From NCBI RefSeq assembly GCF_030548465.1, contig NZ_JAUOSF010000001.1:310001-374000 (forward strand): DNA of 64,000 nt. Direction: 5' to 3'. The stretch is from Tamlana sp. 2_MG-2023 (GTDB lineage Bacteria; Bacteroidota; Bacteroidia; Flavobacteriales; Flavobacteriaceae). The notes beneath the pieces are model-generated. The model saw only the letters and a list, made by a program, of their open reading frames with translations, searched no databases and had not been told where the DNA came from. The translations under genes and the position numbers were made by a program. Shown piece after piece: positions 3,270 to 45,279 of the stretch (positions are counted from its first letter, which is position 1; each line of letters starts with the position of its first letter).

Positions 3270-4388
3270 ATGAAAAATTATTTTTTATTTTTTTTAGTTG
3301 TCATCATTTCTAGTTGTAATCAGTCAAAGAAAAAGCAGGCTTTAAAACCTGATGAATTAGAGACTGTAGCTATAGCGGAAATCCCTAAGTTAGATTTAGC
3401 TCATGCGAATAAGTTGGCAGAATTACCAATGCATTGCATTAATATAGAATATCCAAACCGCTTATCACAAACATTAGGAGCTGATGAAGATTTACAAACA
3501 CCTCATGTATTACACCCTGCATTTTATGGTTGTTTCGATTGGCATTCTGCAGTACATGGCCATTGGAGTTTGGTGTGTTTATTAAAATCTTTTCCAAATT
3601 TAGAAAATGCCGATACTATAAAGAAGCGGCTTCTACACAATATGTCTAAAGAAAATATTCAAGCTGAAGTAGCGTATTTTAAAGGAAAGCATAATAAAAA
3701 TTATGAGCGTACCTATGGCTGGGCATGGCTTTTAAAATTAGCAGAAGAACTACATAGCTGGGATGATTCCACGGCTAGAGATTTAGAAGAAAATTTAGAG
3801 CCTCTAACTCTTTTAATTGTTGAAAAATATATTGATTTTTTACCTAAATTAAATTATCCTTTACGTGTAGGAACGCACACCAACACAGCTTTCGGATTGT
3901 CTTTTGCTTACGATTATGCTACTACTGTAAATAATGAAGCTCTTAAAGGAGCTATTACTACTCGCGCTAAACACTTCTATTTGTTAGACGAAAATTGTCC
4001 AATAAGCTGGGAACCTAGCGGAAGTGATTTTTTATCTCCATGTCTTGAAGAGGCGGCATTAATGAAACGTTTGCTTTCAAAACAAGAATTTCTAACATGG
4101 ATAAATAAGTTTTTACCACAATTAAAGGATAAAAATTACAAATTAGAACCAGGAAAAGTTTCAGATAGAACAGATGGTCATTTAGTGCACTTAGACGGTG
4201 TTAATTTTTCTAGAGCCTGGAATTTTTATAAGATAGCCGAAGGTTTGCCAGAGTTTAATCATTTAAAAAATATAGCTAATCACAGTATTAACTATTCGTT
4301 GCCAAGTATTTTTGAAGACAGTTATGAAGGCGGACATTGGCTAGGGAGTTTTGCTATTTATGCATTACACGCATCAGAAGAAAATTAA
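3270..4388 (+). CDS. DUF2891 family lipoprotein
   Basis: A 372-residue protein with signal peptide and lipobox (VVIISSC, Cys16). The motif FYGCFDWHSAVHGHW near residue 85 is the signature of DUF2891, and RVGTHTNTAFGL, SWEPSGSDFLSPCLEE and EGGHWLGSFA continue the family pattern. The conserved His, Asp and Trp residues suggest an alpha/alpha-barrel enzyme acting on a small molecule or glycan, but no activity is established. It lies 62 bp upstream of pxpA on the same strand, so it may be cotranscribed with the 5-oxoprolinase genes. Confidence 0.88.
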   Translation: MKNYFLFFLVVIISSCNQSKKKQALKPDELETVAIAEIPKLDLAHANKLAELPMHCINIEYPNRLSQTLGADEDLQTPHVLHPAFYGCFDWHSAVHGHWSLVCLLKSFPNLENADTIKKRLLHNMSKENIQAEVAYFKGKHNKNYERTYGWAWLLKLAEELHSWDDSTARDLEENLEPLTLLIVEKYIDFLPKLNYPLRVGTHTNTAFGLSFAYDYATTVNNEALKGAITTRAKHFYLLDENCPISWEPSGSDFLSPCLEEAALMKRLLSKQEFLTWINKFLPQLKDKNYKLEPGKVSDRTDGHLVHLDGVNFSRAWNFYKIAEGLPEFNHLKNIANHSINYSLPSIFEDSYEGGHWLGSFAIYALHASEEN

Positions 4389-4450
4389 TTATTAGTATCT
4401 TGTTATTGTTTGGGTCTACAATAATGGACGCTCTACAAAAATAATAATAC

Positions 4451-5188
4451 ATGGAAACACGCATAGACATTAATGCAGATATAGGAGAGGGAATTGGAAA
4501 TGAGGCCGAACTCATGCCATACATATCTTCATGTAATATTGCTTGCGGCGGTCATGCAGGCGATTTGGAAACTATGAAAGCGGTTTCGAAATTGGCTAAA
4601 AAACATGGTGTGAAAATTGGTGCGCATCCTTCATTTCCCGATATGGAAAACTTTGGAAGAAAAGCTGTTGAAATGCCTTGCATTGCCTTGTATACGTCTA
4701 TAAAAAATCAAATTAAAGATCTAATAAGCGTTTTAGATAAAGAACATTTGCGTTTGCATCATGTAAAACCACATGGTGCTTTGTATAATTTAGCAGCTGT
4801 CGATGAAAAAATAGCTCATGTCATTATAGAAGTAATGAAGAGTTTAATGTTGCGTGTTCGGCTTTATGTGCCTTACAATTCTGTGATTGCTAAATTGGCG
4901 ATTGAGAATCAAATTCCAATCATGTATGAAGCTTTTGCAGATCGTAATTATAATTCAGATTTAACTTTGGTTTCAAGAACAGAAGCTAATGCGCTTATAA
5001 AAGATTCTGATACCATGTTTGATCATGTTTTTAATATGATTTCAGCTGAAAAAGTAAAAACAATTGCAGGTGAGTTTGCTAATATAAAAGCAGACACCAT
5101 TTGTGTGCACGGTGATAACCCTGATGCTTATGCTTTAATTTCATCCTTAACAAAGCGCTTAAAGTCTAAAGGGATTCAAATAATTTAA
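4451..5188 (+). CDS. pxpA: 5-oxoprolinase subunit PxpA (LamB/YcsF family)
   Basis: A 245-residue LamB/YcsF protein beginning RIDINADIGEG. Other family motifs are SCNIACGGHAGD, GAHPSFPD, HHVKPHGALYN and ADRNYNSDLTLVSR, and the C-terminal CVHGDNPDA. Together with PxpB and PxpC it forms the prokaryotic ATP-dependent 5-oxoprolinase, which opens 5-oxoproline to glutamate. Only 1 bp separates its stop codon from the pxpB start, so the genes are probably cotranscribed and translationally coupled. Confidence 0.95.
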   Translation: METRIDINADIGEGIGNEAELMPYISSCNIACGGHAGDLETMKAVSKLAKKHGVKIGAHPSFPDMENFGRKAVEMPCIALYTSIKNQIKDLISVLDKEHLRLHHVKPHGALYNLAAVDEKIAHVIIEVMKSLMLRVRLYVPYNSVIAKLAIENQIPIMYEAFADRNYNSDLTLVSRTEANALIKDSDTMFDHVFNMISAEKVKTIAGEFANIKADTICVHGDNPDAYALISSLTKRLKSKGIQII

Positions 5189-7297: not shown

Positions 7298-10200
7298 ATG
7301 AATTTAAAAACTAAACTAACATTAATGTTAATGATGATATTCAATATATCATTGTTTGCACAGGACGGATACCAGTTGTCCGGTACTGTAACAGATGAAA
7401 ACAACACGCCTATTCCGGGTATTAATGTGATTATTGCCAAAACTACCACCGGAACGGCAACAGACTTTGATGGAGGTTTCACATTAGACGTAAAGCCAGG
7501 AGATGTGCTTCAGTTTTCTTACATCGGTTATGTTAAACAATCTATAACTGTTACAGGTCAAAAGTCTATAAACGTAGTTATGGTTGAAGACGCTAGTCAA
7601 CTTGAGGAAGTTGTTGTAGTAGGATATGGAGCTCGTAAAAAGAGTGACGTTACAGGAGCTGTTTCTTCAGTAAAACAAGAAGAATTAACAGCATTTCCTG
7701 TGTTAGATGCTTCTCAAGCATTACAAGGTCGTGCTGCAGGTGTAGATGTACAATCTAATAACGGTGGTGAGCCAGGTGCTCCTATCAGTATTAAAATTAG
7801 AGGTAATACTTCTATTAATGCAAGTAGTGCTCCGCTTATCGTTGTTGATGGATTCGTAGGAGGTACAATGCCACAAGCGGGTGATATTGAGTCTATGCAA
7901 ATCTTAAAAGATGCATCAGCCACTGCGATTTATGGTTCGCAAGGTGCTAATGGTGTGGTATTAGTAACAACTAAGAAAGGTAAAGTAGGTAAATTAAATA
8001 TCGACTTTAACTCAACTTACCAAGTACAAAACACTTCTAATAGATTAGATTTATTAAATGCAAATGATTTTGCTGCTTACCAAAATGATATTCGTGCAAA
8101 TCAAGGAAACTCTAATGCGTATCCACAAGGAGAATATGATACTGATTGGCAAGATATGATTTACAGAAATGGTAGCGTTGCAAACCATCAATTAGCTGTT
8201 TCAGGTGGTACTGAAAAAGTAAGATATTATGCATCTACAACATACTATGCTCAAGATGGTATTTTAGTAAATTCTGATTATGAAAGACTTACTTTCTTAT
8301 CAAACTTAGATGCTCAAGTTACTGATAAATTAAAAGTAGGAGTGAATTTAGTAGGTGGTGCAAGCCAAAAGAGTGGTGTAAGTACACAGTCTAACGGTTC
8401 GGTAACTGTTGGTGGTGATGATGTGGTTACTTTAGCGATGCGTTTTGCTCCAGATAAAGGTGTGTATGAAGGTGATGGTTCTTTCTCGACAAATAATGCT
8501 ATTGGTGACGAGGTAGATAATCCATATGCTGTTGCAACACAAAGAGATGACGATACTGAAATCGAAAACTTTAGAGCAAATTTATATGCTAGTTACGATA
8601 TATTAGAAGGTTTAAACTTCAAAACTACTTTTGGTGTTAGTGATGAAAACACTTTCAGAGGAATTTATATGCCTCGTAGCTTAGAAATAACAGCTGGTAC
8701 AGAGCAAGGTCGTGCTATTATGCAAAATTGGAAATCAAAGAGTATCCTAAGTGAAAACTATTTGACTTACAACAGGGAGATAGGGGAGAGTGTATTAACT
8801 TTATTAGGAGGTTACTCTTACCAAAAGAATACAAACCAAAGTTCTTATAACGAAGGTATTGGTACTATCTCAGATTCATTCTCTTACTATGGTTTATATA
8901 CTGCAACTAGTTTGATTCAACCAACTTCTGGACAAATTTATACTAATGAACGTACGATTCAGTCGGTATTTGGTAGATTAAACTTTGATATCAAAGATAA
9001 GTACTTACTTACTGCAACTTTAAGACGTGATGGAGCTTCTAACTTCGCAGAGAACAAAAAATATGCAAATTTCCCATCAGCGGCCTTAGGTTGGAAAATT
9101 TCTAATGAAAACTTTTTAAAGGATAGCAACGCTATTTCTAACTTAAAGTTTAGAGCAAGTTATGGTGAAACGGGTAACCCTTCTATTGCACCATACCAAT
9201 CTTTAGCAAGTGCTGAAGTTATATATGCTTCAAGTGCAGGTTCTACTGTAGCTGCGATTACACCATACCAAATGGCAAACCCAAATTTAAAATGGGAAAC
9301 TTCTATTCAAACTAATTTCGGTTTAGATTTCGGATTTTTAAATAATAGAATTACGCTTTCTTTAGATTACTATAATATTGATACGGAAGATTTAATTATG
9401 GTTAATAGAGGGCAACCTGATTATTTAGGTTTCTACAACAACGAATCTTTAGTGAATGTTGGAACTATGAATAATACTGGTTTTGAAGTTTTCTTAACTT
9501 CTAATAACATTACTAACGATAACTTTACTTGGTCGACTGATTTTGTATTCTCTAAAAACGTAAATAAAGTAACGTCTTTAATTAATGGAGATGATTGGTT
9601 CGGTAATGGTGCACCTAATTACTTTAGTGTTAATGATACTTACGTGTTAAGAGAAGGAGAAGAAGTTGGACAATTCTGGGGATTTGATTATGCTGGTGTT
9701 TACCAAGGTGGAGCACTTCCTGAAGGTACTGCAGTGATTCCAGCTTCTAAAGATGGTTCTGGAAATCCAGTTCCTGGTGAGCCTCTATTTAGAGATTTAG
9801 AAGCGGATGGAGAAATCGATGATGCGGATAGAACTATGATTGGTAATCCAAATCCAGATTTTACATGGGGTTTCACAAACAACTTTACGTATAAAAACTG
9901 GGATGCAAATATCTTTTTCCAAGGGTCTCAAGGAAATGAAATCTTTAACATGACTCAAGTTCAGTTAAATAATGGTGATGCGAATACAACTTACGATTAT
10001 TATAACAATGCTTGGACTCCTACAAATACTGACACTAATGAGCCACGTGTAGGTAATGCGAGTTTTAGAGAAATTTCTTCTCGTTTTGTTGAGGATGGAA
10101 GCTACGTTCGTTTAAAAAACTTAGCTATAGGATACAACTTATCTTCTCAAGTTTTAGAAAACATTGGTATTGAAAGATTAAGATTATCTGTAAGTGGTCA

Positions 10201-10372
10201 AAATTTATTTACATGGACAGACTACTCTGGTTTAGATCCTGAAGTAAGCTACTTTGGAGCTCAAGGTGGTACCAATGGAAATGACCAAGCAAGAAATACA
10301 ACGAGAGGTTTTGATTTTGGATCTTATCCAACAGTTAGATCTTACAGTTTCAGCTTAAACTTAACATTTTAA
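7298..10372 (+). CDS. SusC/RagA family TonB-linked outer membrane transporter
   Basis: A 1024-residue SusC-type beta barrel. A signal peptide (ending SLFAQ) is followed by a carboxypeptidase-D-regulatory-like domain (LSGTVTDENNTPIPG...), the TonB-interacting segment LEEVVVVGYG near residue 105, and a plug domain with the family motifs IKIRGNTSINASSAPLIVVDG and ILKDASATAIYGSQGANGV. The rest is a 22-strand barrel ending in aromatic F. It pairs with the SusD protein encoded 25 bp downstream to import an oligomer across the outer membrane. No glycoside hydrolase, lyase or peptidase lies beside it, so the substrate cannot be assigned. Confidence 0.97.
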   Translation: MNLKTKLTLMLMMIFNISLFAQDGYQLSGTVTDENNTPIPGINVIIAKTTTGTATDFDGGFTLDVKPGDVLQFSYIGYVKQSITVTGQKSINVVMVEDASQLEEVVVVGYGARKKSDVTGAVSSVKQEELTAFPVLDASQALQGRAAGVDVQSNNGGEPGAPISIKIRGNTSINASSAPLIVVDGFVGGTMPQAGDIESMQILKDASATAIYGSQGANGVVLVTTKKGKVGKLNIDFNSTYQVQNTSNRLDLLNANDFAAYQNDIRANQGNSNAYPQGEYDTDWQDMIYRNGSVANHQLAVSGGTEKVRYYASTTYYAQDGILVNSDYERLTFLSNLDAQVTDKLKVGVNLVGGASQKSGVSTQSNGSVTVGGDDVVTLAMRFAPDKGVYEGDGSFSTNNAIGDEVDNPYAVATQRDDDTEIENFRANLYASYDILEGLNFKTTFGVSDENTFRGIYMPRSLEITAGTEQGRAIMQNWKSKSILSENYLTYNREIGESVLTLLGGYSYQKNTNQSSYNEGIGTISDSFSYYGLYTATSLIQPTSGQIYTNERTIQSVFGRLNFDIKDKYLLTATLRRDGASNFAENKKYANFPSAALGWKISNENFLKDSNAISNLKFRASYGETGNPSIAPYQSLASAEVIYASSAGSTVAAITPYQMANPNLKWETSIQTNFGLDFGFLNNRITLSLDYYNIDTEDLIMVNRGQPDYLGFYNNESLVNVGTMNNTGFEVFLTSNNITNDNFTWSTDFVFSKNVNKVTSLINGDDWFGNGAPNYFSVNDTYVLREGEEVGQFWGFDYAGVYQGGALPEGTAVIPASKDGSGNPVPGEPLFRDLEADGEIDDADRTMIGNPNPDFTWGFTNNFTYKNWDANIFFQGSQGNEIFNMTQVQLNNGDANTTYDYYNNAWTPTNTDTNEPRVGNASFREISSRFVEDGSYVRLKNLAIGYNLSSQVLENIGIERLRLSVSGQNLFTWTDYSGLDPEVSYFGAQGGTNGNDQARNTTRGFDFGSYPTVRSYSFSLNLTF

Positions 10373-37217: not shown

Positions 37218-38846
37218 ATGACAGCAGGATTTCATTTCTGGGACTATGTAGTCTTTATTGCTTATGCCGTATTAATTTTAGGCGTCGGTCTTTGGGTTTC
37301 TAGAGATAAAGAAGGCCATCAAAAAAATGCCGAAGATTACTTCTTGGCAAGTAAATCCCTACCATGGTGGGCTATAGGAACTTCGCTTATTGCGGCAAAT
37401 ATTTCAGCAGAACAATTTATTGGAATGTCTGGATCTGGATTTGCTCTAGGTATTGCAATTGCGTCTTATGAATGGATGGCAGCTTTAACTTTAATTATTG
37501 TAGGTAAGTATTTTTTACCCATTTTTATTGAGAAAGGACTTTATACCATTCCCGAATTTGTGGAAAAACGATTTTCTACAAACCTAAAAACCATTTTAGC
37601 GGTATTTTGGCTGGCACTTTACATTTTTGTGAATTTAGCTTCTGTACTTTATTTGGGTGGTTTGGCCATTGAAACTATTATGGGGGTTGATATGATGTAT
37701 GCCATTATTGGTTTGGCATTATTTGCAGCAGCCTATTCGTTATATGGAGGATTATCGGCAGTGGCATGGACTGATGTCATTCAAGTTGTATTTTTAGTGC
37801 TTGGAGGTTTGGCAACGACTTATTTGGCTTTAAATACAGTTTCTGGAGGAGAAGGTATGATAGCCGGTTTTTCAAAAGTTTTGGAAGCGGCTCCAGAAAA
37901 GTTTCATATGATTCTTGATGAAACCAATGATAATTATAATAATTTACCTGGTATTTGGGTATTAGTCGGCGGACTTTGGGTTGCGAATTTATACTATTGG
38001 GGTTTTAACCAATATATTATTCAACGAACTCTAGCAGCAAAATCGTTAAGAGAATCTCAAAAAGGTATTCTTTTAGCGGCATTTTTAAAGTTAATTATTC
38101 CTCTAATTGTAGTGATTCCTGGTATTGCAGCTTACGTTATGGTAAATGATCCTGAGATCATGGCTAATTTAGGGCAAGATGCTATGTTAAATGTACCATC
38201 TGCAGAACAAGCAGATAAAGCTTACCCTTGGTTATTGCAGTTTTTACCAGTAGGTCTTAAAGGTGTTGCTTTTGCGGCTTTAGCAGCGGCAGTTGTTTCT
38301 TCTTTAGCATCTATGTTAAATTCAACATCCACTATATTTACTATGGATATCTATAAGCAGTACATCAATAAGAATGCTAACGATAAGGAAACTGTAAACG
38401 TGGGACGTATTTCTGCTGCTGTAGCATTAATAATAGCTGTAATTGTAGCGCCATTATTAGGTGGTATCGATCAAGCTTTTCAATTCATCCAAGAATATAC
38501 CGGAATTGTGAGTCCGGGTATCTTAGCGGTATTCATGTTGGGGCTATTCTGGAAAAAAACAACAAACAATGCTGCTATTTGGGGAGCGATTGCGTCAATT
38601 CCAATTGCATTAGCTCTTAAGTTTTTACCGATTCCAATATTGGAGCCTTGGATGCACCAAATGGGAATAACCGCTTTATTAACGATGGCAATTATCATGT
38701 TATTAAGTTACTTGCAAAATAAGGGGGCAGATGATCCAAAAGGAATTGAATTGTCTAAGGAATTATTTAAAACATCACCAGGCTTTAATATAGGCTCATT
38801 TGTAGTTTGTATCATTTTAACCGTGTTGTATGCGTTATTTTGGTAG
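37218..38846 (+). CDS. Sodium/sugar symporter, SSS (SGLT) family
   Basis: A 542-residue membrane protein with about 14 transmembrane helices. It shows the SSS signatures KNAEDYFLASKSLPWWAIG, GTSLIAANISAEQFIGMSG, and AALAAAVVSSLASMLNSTSTIFTMDIYKQY. Its location opposite gntR-galMKT makes galactose (or a galactoside) the most likely substrate, imported with Na+. A very strong terminator follows. Confidence 0.95.
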   Translation: MTAGFHFWDYVVFIAYAVLILGVGLWVSRDKEGHQKNAEDYFLASKSLPWWAIGTSLIAANISAEQFIGMSGSGFALGIAIASYEWMAALTLIIVGKYFLPIFIEKGLYTIPEFVEKRFSTNLKTILAVFWLALYIFVNLASVLYLGGLAIETIMGVDMMYAIIGLALFAAAYSLYGGLSAVAWTDVIQVVFLVLGGLATTYLALNTVSGGEGMIAGFSKVLEAAPEKFHMILDETNDNYNNLPGIWVLVGGLWVANLYYWGFNQYIIQRTLAAKSLRESQKGILLAAFLKLIIPLIVVIPGIAAYVMVNDPEIMANLGQDAMLNVPSAEQADKAYPWLLQFLPVGLKGVAFAALAAAVVSSLASMLNSTSTIFTMDIYKQYINKNANDKETVNVGRISAAVALIIAVIVAPLLGGIDQAFQFIQEYTGIVSPGILAVFMLGLFWKKTTNNAAIWGAIASIPIALALKFLPIPILEPWMHQMGITALLTMAIIMLLSYLQNKGADDPKGIELSKELFKTSPGFNIGSFVVCIILTVLYALFW

Positions 38847-43690: not shown

Positions 43691-43736
43691 CGACACCATA
43701 TGTCGCCATGAAACCTCTAAACCTGGCGTAAATTTG
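43691..43736 (+). promoter_or_regulatory. Shared promoter module, copy A (operator plus -7 box)
   Basis: CGACA-CCATA-TGTCG (43691-43705), then 23 bp, then TAAATTTG (43729-43736). No TTTG -33 box lies at the usual distance; the palindrome occupies about -42 relative to the expected start, the position of a class II activator site. Identical architecture occurs at 44196 and 45039. Confidence 0.75.
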
Positions 43737-43739
43737 TCC

Positions 43740-43936
43740 TGTAATTATAACAGATTACATTTTTTCATAAAGTTAGTTTAGTTTGGTTTTTAAAAGATTA
43801 ATGGAGCTGCTGTAGGTGTGGTTACCTGCAGCAGTTAATCTTTTTTAAAATAACTTATGAAAATTCAAATACGCCCAAGTAGATCATTATATATAGTAAA
43901 ACCCTGTAGAAATTTTGTTTCTGTAGGGTTTTCGGT
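43740..43936 (+). ncRNA. Structured small RNA, copy A
   Basis: A predicted ~195-nt transcript between the promoter module and an intrinsic terminator. Elements in order: a 5' hairpin TGTAAT-N8-ATTACA (43740-43759); a long hairpin with lower stem AAAAGATTAA/TTAATCTTTT (43792-43801 with 43835-43844), a 5-nt 5' bulge and upper stem CTGCTGTAGGT/ACCTGCAGCAG around GTGGTT; a 54-nt segment (43854-43907) almost identical in copy B; and a terminator stem 43898-43932. Differences from copy B in the stems keep base pairing (A-T in place of G-C at 43795/43841; G-U pairs in place of G-C and U-A in the terminator). An Rfam match such as the Flavo-1 motif was not testable here. Confidence 0.75.
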
Positions 43937-44195
43937 TTTTAATAGTTTCTCTATAAATAGAGTTTTGCCTAGTTAAGGGGGTGAAATGTAAAAGTTAATC
44001 TTCAGTTTTATTTGCAGTTGACTTCGGAAGATGTTCTTGAGTTCTCATGAATATCATTTTCTATCTTAAACTTTATATTGTTTTTAGAATTCTGTTTCAG
44101 TTTATTTCTATGTCTCTAAAATACGGCTTAAAGTAGGATCTATAAGTGATTCTTGTTCCTTGTAGCTAAGAGTTTGAGATTATGTAATCCAATAC
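43937..44195. other. Gene-free spacer between sRNA copy A and the secreted-protein gene
   Basis: AT-rich, without a recognised gene, repeat or third RNA copy. Copy A's near-palindrome CTCTATAAATAGAG follows the terminator at about 43950. Confidence 0.4.
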
Positions 44196-44241
44196 CGACA
44201 CGTCATGTCGCCATACAAGCTTTGCTCTAGATGTAAATTTG
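44196..44241 (+). promoter_or_regulatory. Shared promoter module, copy C, upstream of the secreted-protein gene
   Basis: CGACA-CGTCA-TGTCG (44196-44210), 23 bp, TAAATTTG (44234-44241). After it the sequence continues GTGTAATTA.AACA.ATTA, still resembling the start of both sRNAs, so the three promoters are related by descent and not only by the box. The leader to the ATG is about 60 nt. Confidence 0.75.
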
Positions 44242-44306
44242 TAGTGTAATTAAAACAAATTATAATTTTTAAGACTGTAATTAATTAAATAAGTAAATTA
44301 TATATT

Positions 44307-44909
44307 ATGAATAACATTTTGAAAAACACGAGAAAAGGATTTTTAATGCTAGCTTTATTTGGTACTATGGCAAGTTTTGCTGATGCTCCTGCAGACGGTA
44401 TTATTGTTGAAGGGAACAACACCACCTTAACTTTGAATTACGCAAAACAAGGTAGTGCTGTATCAATTAAAGATACGAATGGTTCTGTGCTTTATACTGA
44501 AACTATTGAAACTACTGGTAGATATAAGAAAAACTTTGATTTAACCTTTTTACCTGACGGAAACTATCTATTTGAGGTTGATAAAGATCTTGAAATTAAT
44601 GAAATTCCATTTACGTTAAATTCTGGAGTTGCCGTTTTTAACAAGAACGAAGAAAAAGTTGTTTACAAGCCTTTCCTTAGAGTTTCGAATGATTTAGTTT
44701 ATATAAGTAAGTTAAATCTTGATAATGAAGATTTAGACGTTAATATTTATTTTACTAAGAACAATAGTATGAATTCTCAACTTGTTGTTTCTGAAAAAAT
44801 TAAAAGCACTAATAATATAGAAAAAGTCTATAAATTAGAGGATTTGGGACAAGGTAGATATAAAATCGTATTGAACTCTGCAGGTAGAACAGTTGAAAAA
44901 AACATATAA
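44307..44909 (+). CDS. Small secreted flavobacterial protein, function unknown
   Basis: A 200-residue protein with signal peptide (RKGFLMLALFGTMASFA). Two repeated-looking beta-rich halves follow: TLTLNYAKQGSAVSIKDTNGSVLYTETIETTG with FLPDGNYLFEVDKD, then YISKLNLDNEDLDVNIYFT with DLGQGRYKIVLNS. The halves resemble the T9SS sorting-domain fold (strand, DTNG turn, DGNYxFEV end), but the protein consists of these alone. Similar short exported proteins occur in several copies in flavobacteria; no function is known to me. Its promoter is shared with the two flanking sRNAs, and a strong terminator follows. Confidence 0.8.
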   Translation: MNNILKNTRKGFLMLALFGTMASFADAPADGIIVEGNNTTLTLNYAKQGSAVSIKDTNGSVLYTETIETTGRYKKNFDLTFLPDGNYLFEVDKDLEINEIPFTLNSGVAVFNKNEEKVVYKPFLRVSNDLVYISKLNLDNEDLDVNIYFTKNNSMNSQLVVSEKIKSTNNIEKVYKLEDLGQGRYKIVLNSAGRTVEKNI

Positions 44910-44929
44910 ACCTTAAATTAGTATATTTG

Positions 44930-44964
44930 AAAAAGGTGACCCTAAAAGAGGTCACCTTTTTTTA
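44930..44964 (+). terminator. Terminator of the secreted-protein gene
   Basis: AAAAGGTGACC-CTAAAAGA-GGTCACCTTTT followed by T residues. Confidence 0.93.
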
Positions 44965-45038
44965 TACCAATCATTTTATAGCCTAAACAAATCGAATAGG
45001 CTAGACTCGAGGGACTATGTTTAGCTTTATTAAAACAC

Positions 45039-45084
45039 CGACACCGCATGTCGCTATAAAGTTTCTAAATCCGGCGTAAATTTG
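45039..45084 (+). promoter_or_regulatory. Shared promoter module, copy B
   Basis: CGACA-CCGCA-TGTCG (45039-45053), 23 bp, TAAATTTG (45077-45084). Same spacing as copies A and C. Confidence 0.75.
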
Positions 45085-45087
45085 TAA

Positions 45088-45279
45088 TGTAATTATAACA
45101 GATTACATTTTTTCATAAAGTTAGTTTGATTTTTAAGGATTAATGGATCTGCTGCAGGTGTGGTTACCTGCAGCAGTTAATCCTCTTTAAGAAAACCTTA
45201 TGAAAATTCAAATATGCCCAAGTAGATCATTATATATAGTAAAACCCTGTGAATTTTAAGCATTCACAGGGTTTTCGGT
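45088..45279 (+). ncRNA. Structured small RNA, copy B
   Basis: Second copy of the RNA at 43740. It has the 5' hairpin TGTAAT-N8-ATTACA (45088-45107). Its long hairpin has lower stem AGGATTAA/TTAATCCT and a perfect upper stem CTGCTGCAGGT/ACCTGCAGCAG around the same GTGGTT loop (45149-45176). The conserved segment 45197-45250 differs from copy A at one base. The terminator AAAACCCTGTGAAT/ATTCACAGGGTTTT (45241-45275) is fully paired where copy A uses G-U pairs. A short frame (MKIQICPSRSLYIVKPCEF) exists in the conserved segment but extends differently in copy A. The terminator could also serve the convergent DUF349 gene. Confidence 0.75.

Follow-up and report, generated by a model that had tools for sequence, protein, structure and literature searches.

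Multicopy small RNAs of Tamlana carry a putative start-codon-antisense seed behind an operator associated with an HTH-GNAT protein

Enterobacterial RybB and MicA are sigma-E-driven, Hfq-dependent sRNAs that act at the starts of many mRNAs for outer-membrane proteins and silence them. Marine and freshwater Bacteroidota take up much of the ocean's polysaccharide via susC-type transporters, and to our knowledge post-transcriptional control in these bacteria is almost unexplored. In Bacteroides thetaiotaomicron the paralogous FopS sRNA family has been shown to repress outer-membrane glycan transporters; its seed occupies the 5' terminus (nt 1-21), its promoters are of the canonical kind, and the family is linked to the RNA-binding protein RbpB (PMC11697453). 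In Bacteroides the sRNA GibS acts in trans, through a conserved seed that base-pairs with translation initiation regions (PMC7366714), and Rfp18 of Flavobacterium psychrophilum has a predicted pairing region in its third stem-loop and targets metalloproteases and an adhesin (PMC9723704). Here we describe an RNA family first seen in a window of Tamlana sp. 2_MG-2023, the window being the whole 64,000-nt stretch of DNA that was analysed. A literature search found no paper on Tamlana small RNAs.

An initial annotation of the window had proposed two copies (A and B) of a structured RNA lying outside any gene. Reading the sequence directly places both copies where they had been reported (Table 1), and the description of a non-coding, duplicated, pairing-preserving RNA without a described family holds. 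Both fold more stably than their dinucleotide shuffles, of which 0 of 200 were as good. The homology between A and B begins ~50 bp upstream of the starts first given, because the duplication takes in the promoter and operator. A third copy of this unit lies between A and B, where it is the predicted promoter of the small DUF3244-like gene. The DUF349 gene beside copy B has an adjoining copy of the RNA in other Tamlana genomes as well. In Tamlana agarivorans I2M19 the leader of a DUF3244-like gene is itself the 5' half of the sRNA, with promoter, 5' hairpin, seed and hairpin (L024; G005:C20:218098), and related terminators lie near DUF3244-like genes at two other loci (L030, L032), which suggests a common origin of the long sRNAs and the DUF3244-like mRNA.

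Table 1. Positions of the RNA copies, their elements and associated genes in the window
Feature	Position	Strand	Evidence or remark
Copy A small RNA, long form, ~200 nt	43738..43937	+	fold z -6.0; homologues in all six Tamlana genomes
Copy A operator palindrome GACACCATATGTC	43692..43704	+	operator search, spacing fixed at 24 bp
Copy A promoter -7 element TAAATTTG, Bacteroidota type	43729..43736	+	position same in all copies
Copy A 5' hairpin TGTAATtataacagATTACA	43740..43759	+	folding
Copy A putative seed (reverse complement of leader + ATG + AAAAAA)	43760..43795	+	best pairing with susC starts
Copy A central GC-rich hairpin, GUGGUU loop, then T-run	43796..43846	+	covariation; terminator in short forms
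Copy A 54-nt segment, common with copy B; AUGAAAA stretch first, conserved RCCCAAGTARATCATTATATATAG and terminator start last	43854..43907	+	
Copy A final intrinsic terminator	43901..43937	+	covariation
Third operator + promoter copy, upstream of gene 44307-44909	44197..44241	+	seed and hairpin absent at this site
Small secreted-protein gene, DUF3244-like, 200 aa, same operator	44307..44909	+	Pfam PF11589 E 6.6e-6
Copy B small RNA, long form	45086..45279	+	fold z -6.9
Copy B operator GACACCGCATGTC	45040..45052	+	operator search
Copy B promoter TAAATTTG	45077..45084	+	operator search
Copy B putative seed, shorter than that of copy A	45108..45136	+	window scan
Copy B central hairpin	45137..45186	+	folding, covariation
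Copy B 54-nt segment	45197..45250	+	sequence comparison with copy A
Copy B final terminator	45241..45279	+	folding, covariation
Predicted target, susC-type TonB-dependent receptor gene	7298..10372	+	TIGR04056 910 bits; seed duplex -19 to -22 kcal/mol at start

That A and B belong to a genuine multicopy RNA family is practically certain. The family comprises 17 long and 6 short forms at 2-5 copies per genome, and all six sampled Tamlana genomes (the present one and 5 of 5 others) carry it. Three long copies (A, B and C23:274581) and two short ones (C23:405070 and C23:247115) are found in the present genome; the initial annotation had no view of the copies outside the window, of the short forms or of the common promoter and operator. 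Outside the genus, 1 of 54 genomes gave a match, which spans 35 bp only and is the leader of an opposite-strand gene (L014). A covariance model of the 5' domain, run against 200 Flavobacteriaceae genomes, recovered the Tamlana copies and almost nothing else: no clear homologue appeared outside Tamlana, and of the two weak matches one is a bare hairpin-like terminator and no homologue (G208), the other a different scaffold bearing the same seed (G148). At the sensitivity used the family is confined to Tamlana. At the gathering threshold Rfam 15 returned one tRNA only from the whole window and no match to any family at the locus, including Flavo-1 (RF01705) and 6S, both of which were also absent from the below-threshold list, where the matches at the locus were of the chance type only.

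Every copy possesses a promoter of the form TAnnTTTG, preceded at a distance of exactly 24 bp by a GACAN5TGTC palindrome, and we infer that transcription of A and B starts just downstream of the promoter element. The operator followed after 24 bp by TANATTTG occurs at 7 places in the present genome and at 0 in a reversed control. This spacing recurs at 66 distinct sites, part of which came from a pattern allowing 22-30 bp, versus at most 1 site at any other spacing. In a search of 300 Flavobacteriaceae genomes the operator/promoter unit was found in Tamlana and eight others, and in most of those genomes it adjoins a gene whose ~290-residue protein product combines an HTH at the N terminus with a GNAT-like fold at the C terminus. 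Genes for this protein, one of them at G000:C43:176802-177728, are present in 14 of the 14 operator-positive genomes examined versus 12 of 150 sampled overall (~8%), and the palindrome is ~200-fold denser around them (28 in 48 kb versus 1 in 400 kb of background; control palindromes 0). It is usually located at the regulator gene's own start, as expected for autoregulation. The AlphaFold model of the protein (mean pLDDT 88) displays N-terminal HTH-like helices and a GNAT fold; the match to HTH_3 (PF01381) scores 17.2 bits against a cut-off of 23, and Foldseek aligns the C-terminal domain to GNAT structures with a best E of 2.7e-4 and a TM-score by target length of up to 0.66. Inspection of the regulator alignment by eye showed no canonical acetyl-CoA Q/RxxGxG/A motif. 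By association, the HTH-GNAT protein is very probably linked to the GACAN5TGTC operator. The operator centre lies ~43 bp before the inferred start site, a position that would suit an activator, and the protein, for which no link with RNAs of this kind had been described, appears to turn on all copies in concert.

The same operator also precedes a different non-coding RNA beside the regulator gene (L095; G000:C43:176134-176178), consisting of a GGATTAATAGCAAT..AAGTTTGATTTTT motif and a terminator; its relatives in several genera (L031, L128, L129, L130 and L137) suggest that it may be distributed more widely than the other members of the regulon. Operator sites near the regulator were also seen before small unknown genes (4305-4655, 2483-2722 and 11305-11487 of L127, G000:C43:174000-188000), which are candidate regulon proteins.

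The pairing changes first reported between A and B are all present in the sequence, and differ in kind. The A43795-U43841 pair of copy A is G-C in copy B with both sides changed; the upper-stem U.G that becomes C-G, and the terminator G.U and U.G that become G-C and U-A, are each one-sided changes, and two more terminator pairs differ on both sides. The 54-nt segment carries the one substitution described. Two copies alone are weak evidence for selection on pairing, the interpretation originally offered, which gains its support from tests that took in 16-19 sequences. In these, 5 of 14 pairs of the central hairpin have changed on both sides with pairing kept, a count reached by 1 of 500 shuffles, as have 5 of 14 in the final terminator (0 of 500), and none of the slid versions of these structures reached the observed counts. 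The central hairpin of Tamlana sp. I1 has a different loop and different stem letters at the same position, and a short copy in G004 (L023) has another hairpin-terminator behind the same seed. Six short copies stop at the central hairpin with a T-run directly after it, so that this hairpin also acts as a terminator. In the predicted ensemble of the long copies the seed has a mean unpaired probability of 0.3-0.5, i.e. it is ~50-70% paired, its partner being the downstream AUGAAAA segment; of the five short copies folded, three have a seed ~0.8 unpaired and two ~0.55-0.6.

The likely binding region is a stretch between the 5' and central hairpins that had gone unremarked. Here every copy has a stretch of the TTTTTTCATA..GTTAGTTT..GTTTGGTTTTTAA type; its constant part, TTTTTTCATAAAGTTAGTTTAGTTTGGTTTTTAAAG, is complementary, read in reverse, to a flavobacterial leader and start codon. 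In copy A the reverse complement, TTAAAAACCAAACTAAACTAACTTTATGAAAAAA, resembles such a leader followed by the start codon and first lysine codons, and susC leaders of the same look occur in the same genome (e.g. AACTTAAAAACTAACTAAACTTTATGAAAAACAG). Seed duplex energies were -15.3 kcal/mol at 15 susC starts versus -11.5 at 325 background genes (p=2.6e-4), a preference matched by 0 of 200 shuffled seeds and absent with the reversed seed. The energy minimum falls at -30..+9 of the ATG and the effect is gone 60 bp to either side; scanning the whole RNA, susC preference was found only in windows within nt 11-66. Targets were ranked over the susC loci and 464 kb of background, with start codons assigned mechanically. 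A pattern search for a near-perfect mRNA target found the full complementary sequence at the sRNA genes only. We regard the seed as probably a start-codon antisense of outer-membrane genes. The 54-nt segment, which had been put forward as a target- or protein-binding region, is not the most likely place for target binding, since species differ in its 5' half and none of its parts shows a preference for susC starts; the 3' segment was rejected as a susC-binding seed on the same window scan. Two small ORFs were likewise discarded, one in the 54-nt segment (ATGAAAATT...) whose frame differs between copies, and MKKCNLL on the strand opposite the seed, which is unconserved in other species.

The susC effects are moderate, with about half of the susC genes scoring like background and several non-susC genes scoring as well as susC genes; since many flavobacterial leaders share the ACTAAA..ATGAAA style, the preference is a shift in distribution. 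A sodium:solute symporter gene (PF00474; window 37218-38846), for example, has a leader TTAACTAATAAACTAACTAATTATG that pairs with the seed at -19.8 kcal/mol and is a possible non-susC target. It is conceivable, if rather unlikely, that the RNAs inhibit translation of exported proteins in general, their seed simply matching the AT-rich ...ACTAAA..ATGAAAAAA start found in many signal-peptide genes without being aimed at susC in particular. In keeping with this reading, background genes starting with MK also score well (-12.9 versus -11.5 for all), and the top background matches include a symporter, lipoproteins and secreted proteins; susC genes nonetheless stay above the MK-starting genes (p=0.017), and the susC preference also holds with the leader alone (p=0.005).

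The same seed recurs in other sRNA scaffolds, and nothing points more strongly to it as the working part. Two tandem sRNA genes of <100 nt (L094/L126; G000:C41:259368-259720) combine the same operator with another body and a GGCTACAAAA..TTTTGTAGCC terminator; their seed is TTTTTCATAAGTTTAAGTTTGGTTAGTTTGAAAA or a close variant, and it prefers susC (p=6.8e-5). Two genomes of other genera hold a distinct sRNA (L209, L210, L211 and L212), in four copies in G022 and six in G173, which carries TTTTTCATATGGTTAGTTTGGTTAGTTTGAAA or a close variant with a terminator and no GACAN5TGTC operator; tested against the genes of G173 itself, the seed of that genome again prefers susC starts (p=5e-4, 0 of 200 shuffles). 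One further sRNA with the same seed in a different scaffold is found in G148. A tandem pair resembling L094/L126 was also seen in G002 (L216).

Two further readings are in our view improbable to a similar degree. According to one, the central hairpin is a cis-acting attenuator and the loci are orphaned leaders of DUF3244-like genes, yielding free RNA without a function in trans. The leader of the T. agarivorans gene and the related terminators described above speak for this; nearly all copies, however, have no gene before a terminator and sit at unrelated loci, and the seed is kept in scaffolds that lack the central hairpin. According to the other, the conserved 3' segment (RCCCAAGTARATCATTATATATAG) does most of the work, for instance as the site of an RNA-binding protein, with the seed as just a folding partner. 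The segment is indeed nearly invariant across species and mostly unpaired (0.55-0.82 in most long copies), but six short copies lack it and retain the promoter and seed. Finally, mobile or REP-like repetitive DNA without RNA function would account for multiple dispersed copies, and is a very remote prospect given the directional promoter, fixed operator spacing, terminators, two-sided compensatory changes and positions common to different species.

The best explanation, and in our judgement a fairly likely one, is a regulator-controlled set of trans-acting sRNAs that block translation of outer-membrane transporters. The HTH-GNAT protein would bind GACAN5TGTC ~43 bp ahead of the start site and activate all copies together; the sRNAs would then cover the start codons of susC/TonB-receptor mRNAs by base pairing and keep ribosomes from loading, so that several transporters would be lowered at once. 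The activation half of this mechanism draws on association and position, the translation-block half on complementarity, and repression is the somewhat probable outcome. Termination at the central hairpin might yield a short RNA whose seed is more accessible, and read-through a long RNA in which the downstream AUGAAAA segment partly masks it, a switch that we offer as a rather doubtful hypothesis. Although speculative, and tentative as a whole, a broader picture is that of an sRNA-dominated regulon in which one HTH-GNAT regulator, scattered in Flavobacteriaceae, directly activates structurally unrelated sRNAs with the same seed, the Tamlana RNAs being active short and self-masked long forms set by an internal terminator, a built-in dosage control over all outer-membrane receptors.

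If true, the anti-susC strategy of gut Bacteroides also exists in Flavobacteriaceae, where it comes with a named regulator and operator, and its presence on different scaffolds suggests convergence. It would further offer a search rule for species that make little use of Shine-Dalgarno sequences, namely the reverse complement of a leader plus ATG before a terminator.

In comparison with known systems, the Tamlana RNAs as proposed here recall RybB and MicA in that one regulator governs several sRNAs aimed at outer-membrane mRNA starts, but those RNAs are unrelated, Hfq-dependent and driven by a sigma factor instead of an HTH-GNAT regulator. Rfp18, compared by description only, is likewise a structured flavobacterial regulatory sRNA acting on secreted or surface functions. 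GibS shares the trans-acting mode and a seed aimed at translation initiation regions (a prediction in Tamlana), and differs in being GlcNAc-induced, in having metabolic-enzyme targets and in its single-stranded 5' end. FopS is alike in its many paralogous copies per genome and in a seed near the susC-type start codon, placed there in silico for Tamlana, and the repression of outer-membrane transporters that has been shown for FopS is predicted here. Unlike FopS and GibS, the Tamlana RNAs begin with a conserved 5' hairpin followed by the seed (~nt 24-58) and have no single-stranded 5'-terminal seed, and unlike FopS, from which they are set apart by description, they have a palindromic operator at their promoters and both short and long forms. 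With a common logic, no open 5'-terminal seed and a different promoter architecture, the Tamlana RNAs would work like FopS without being members of that family.
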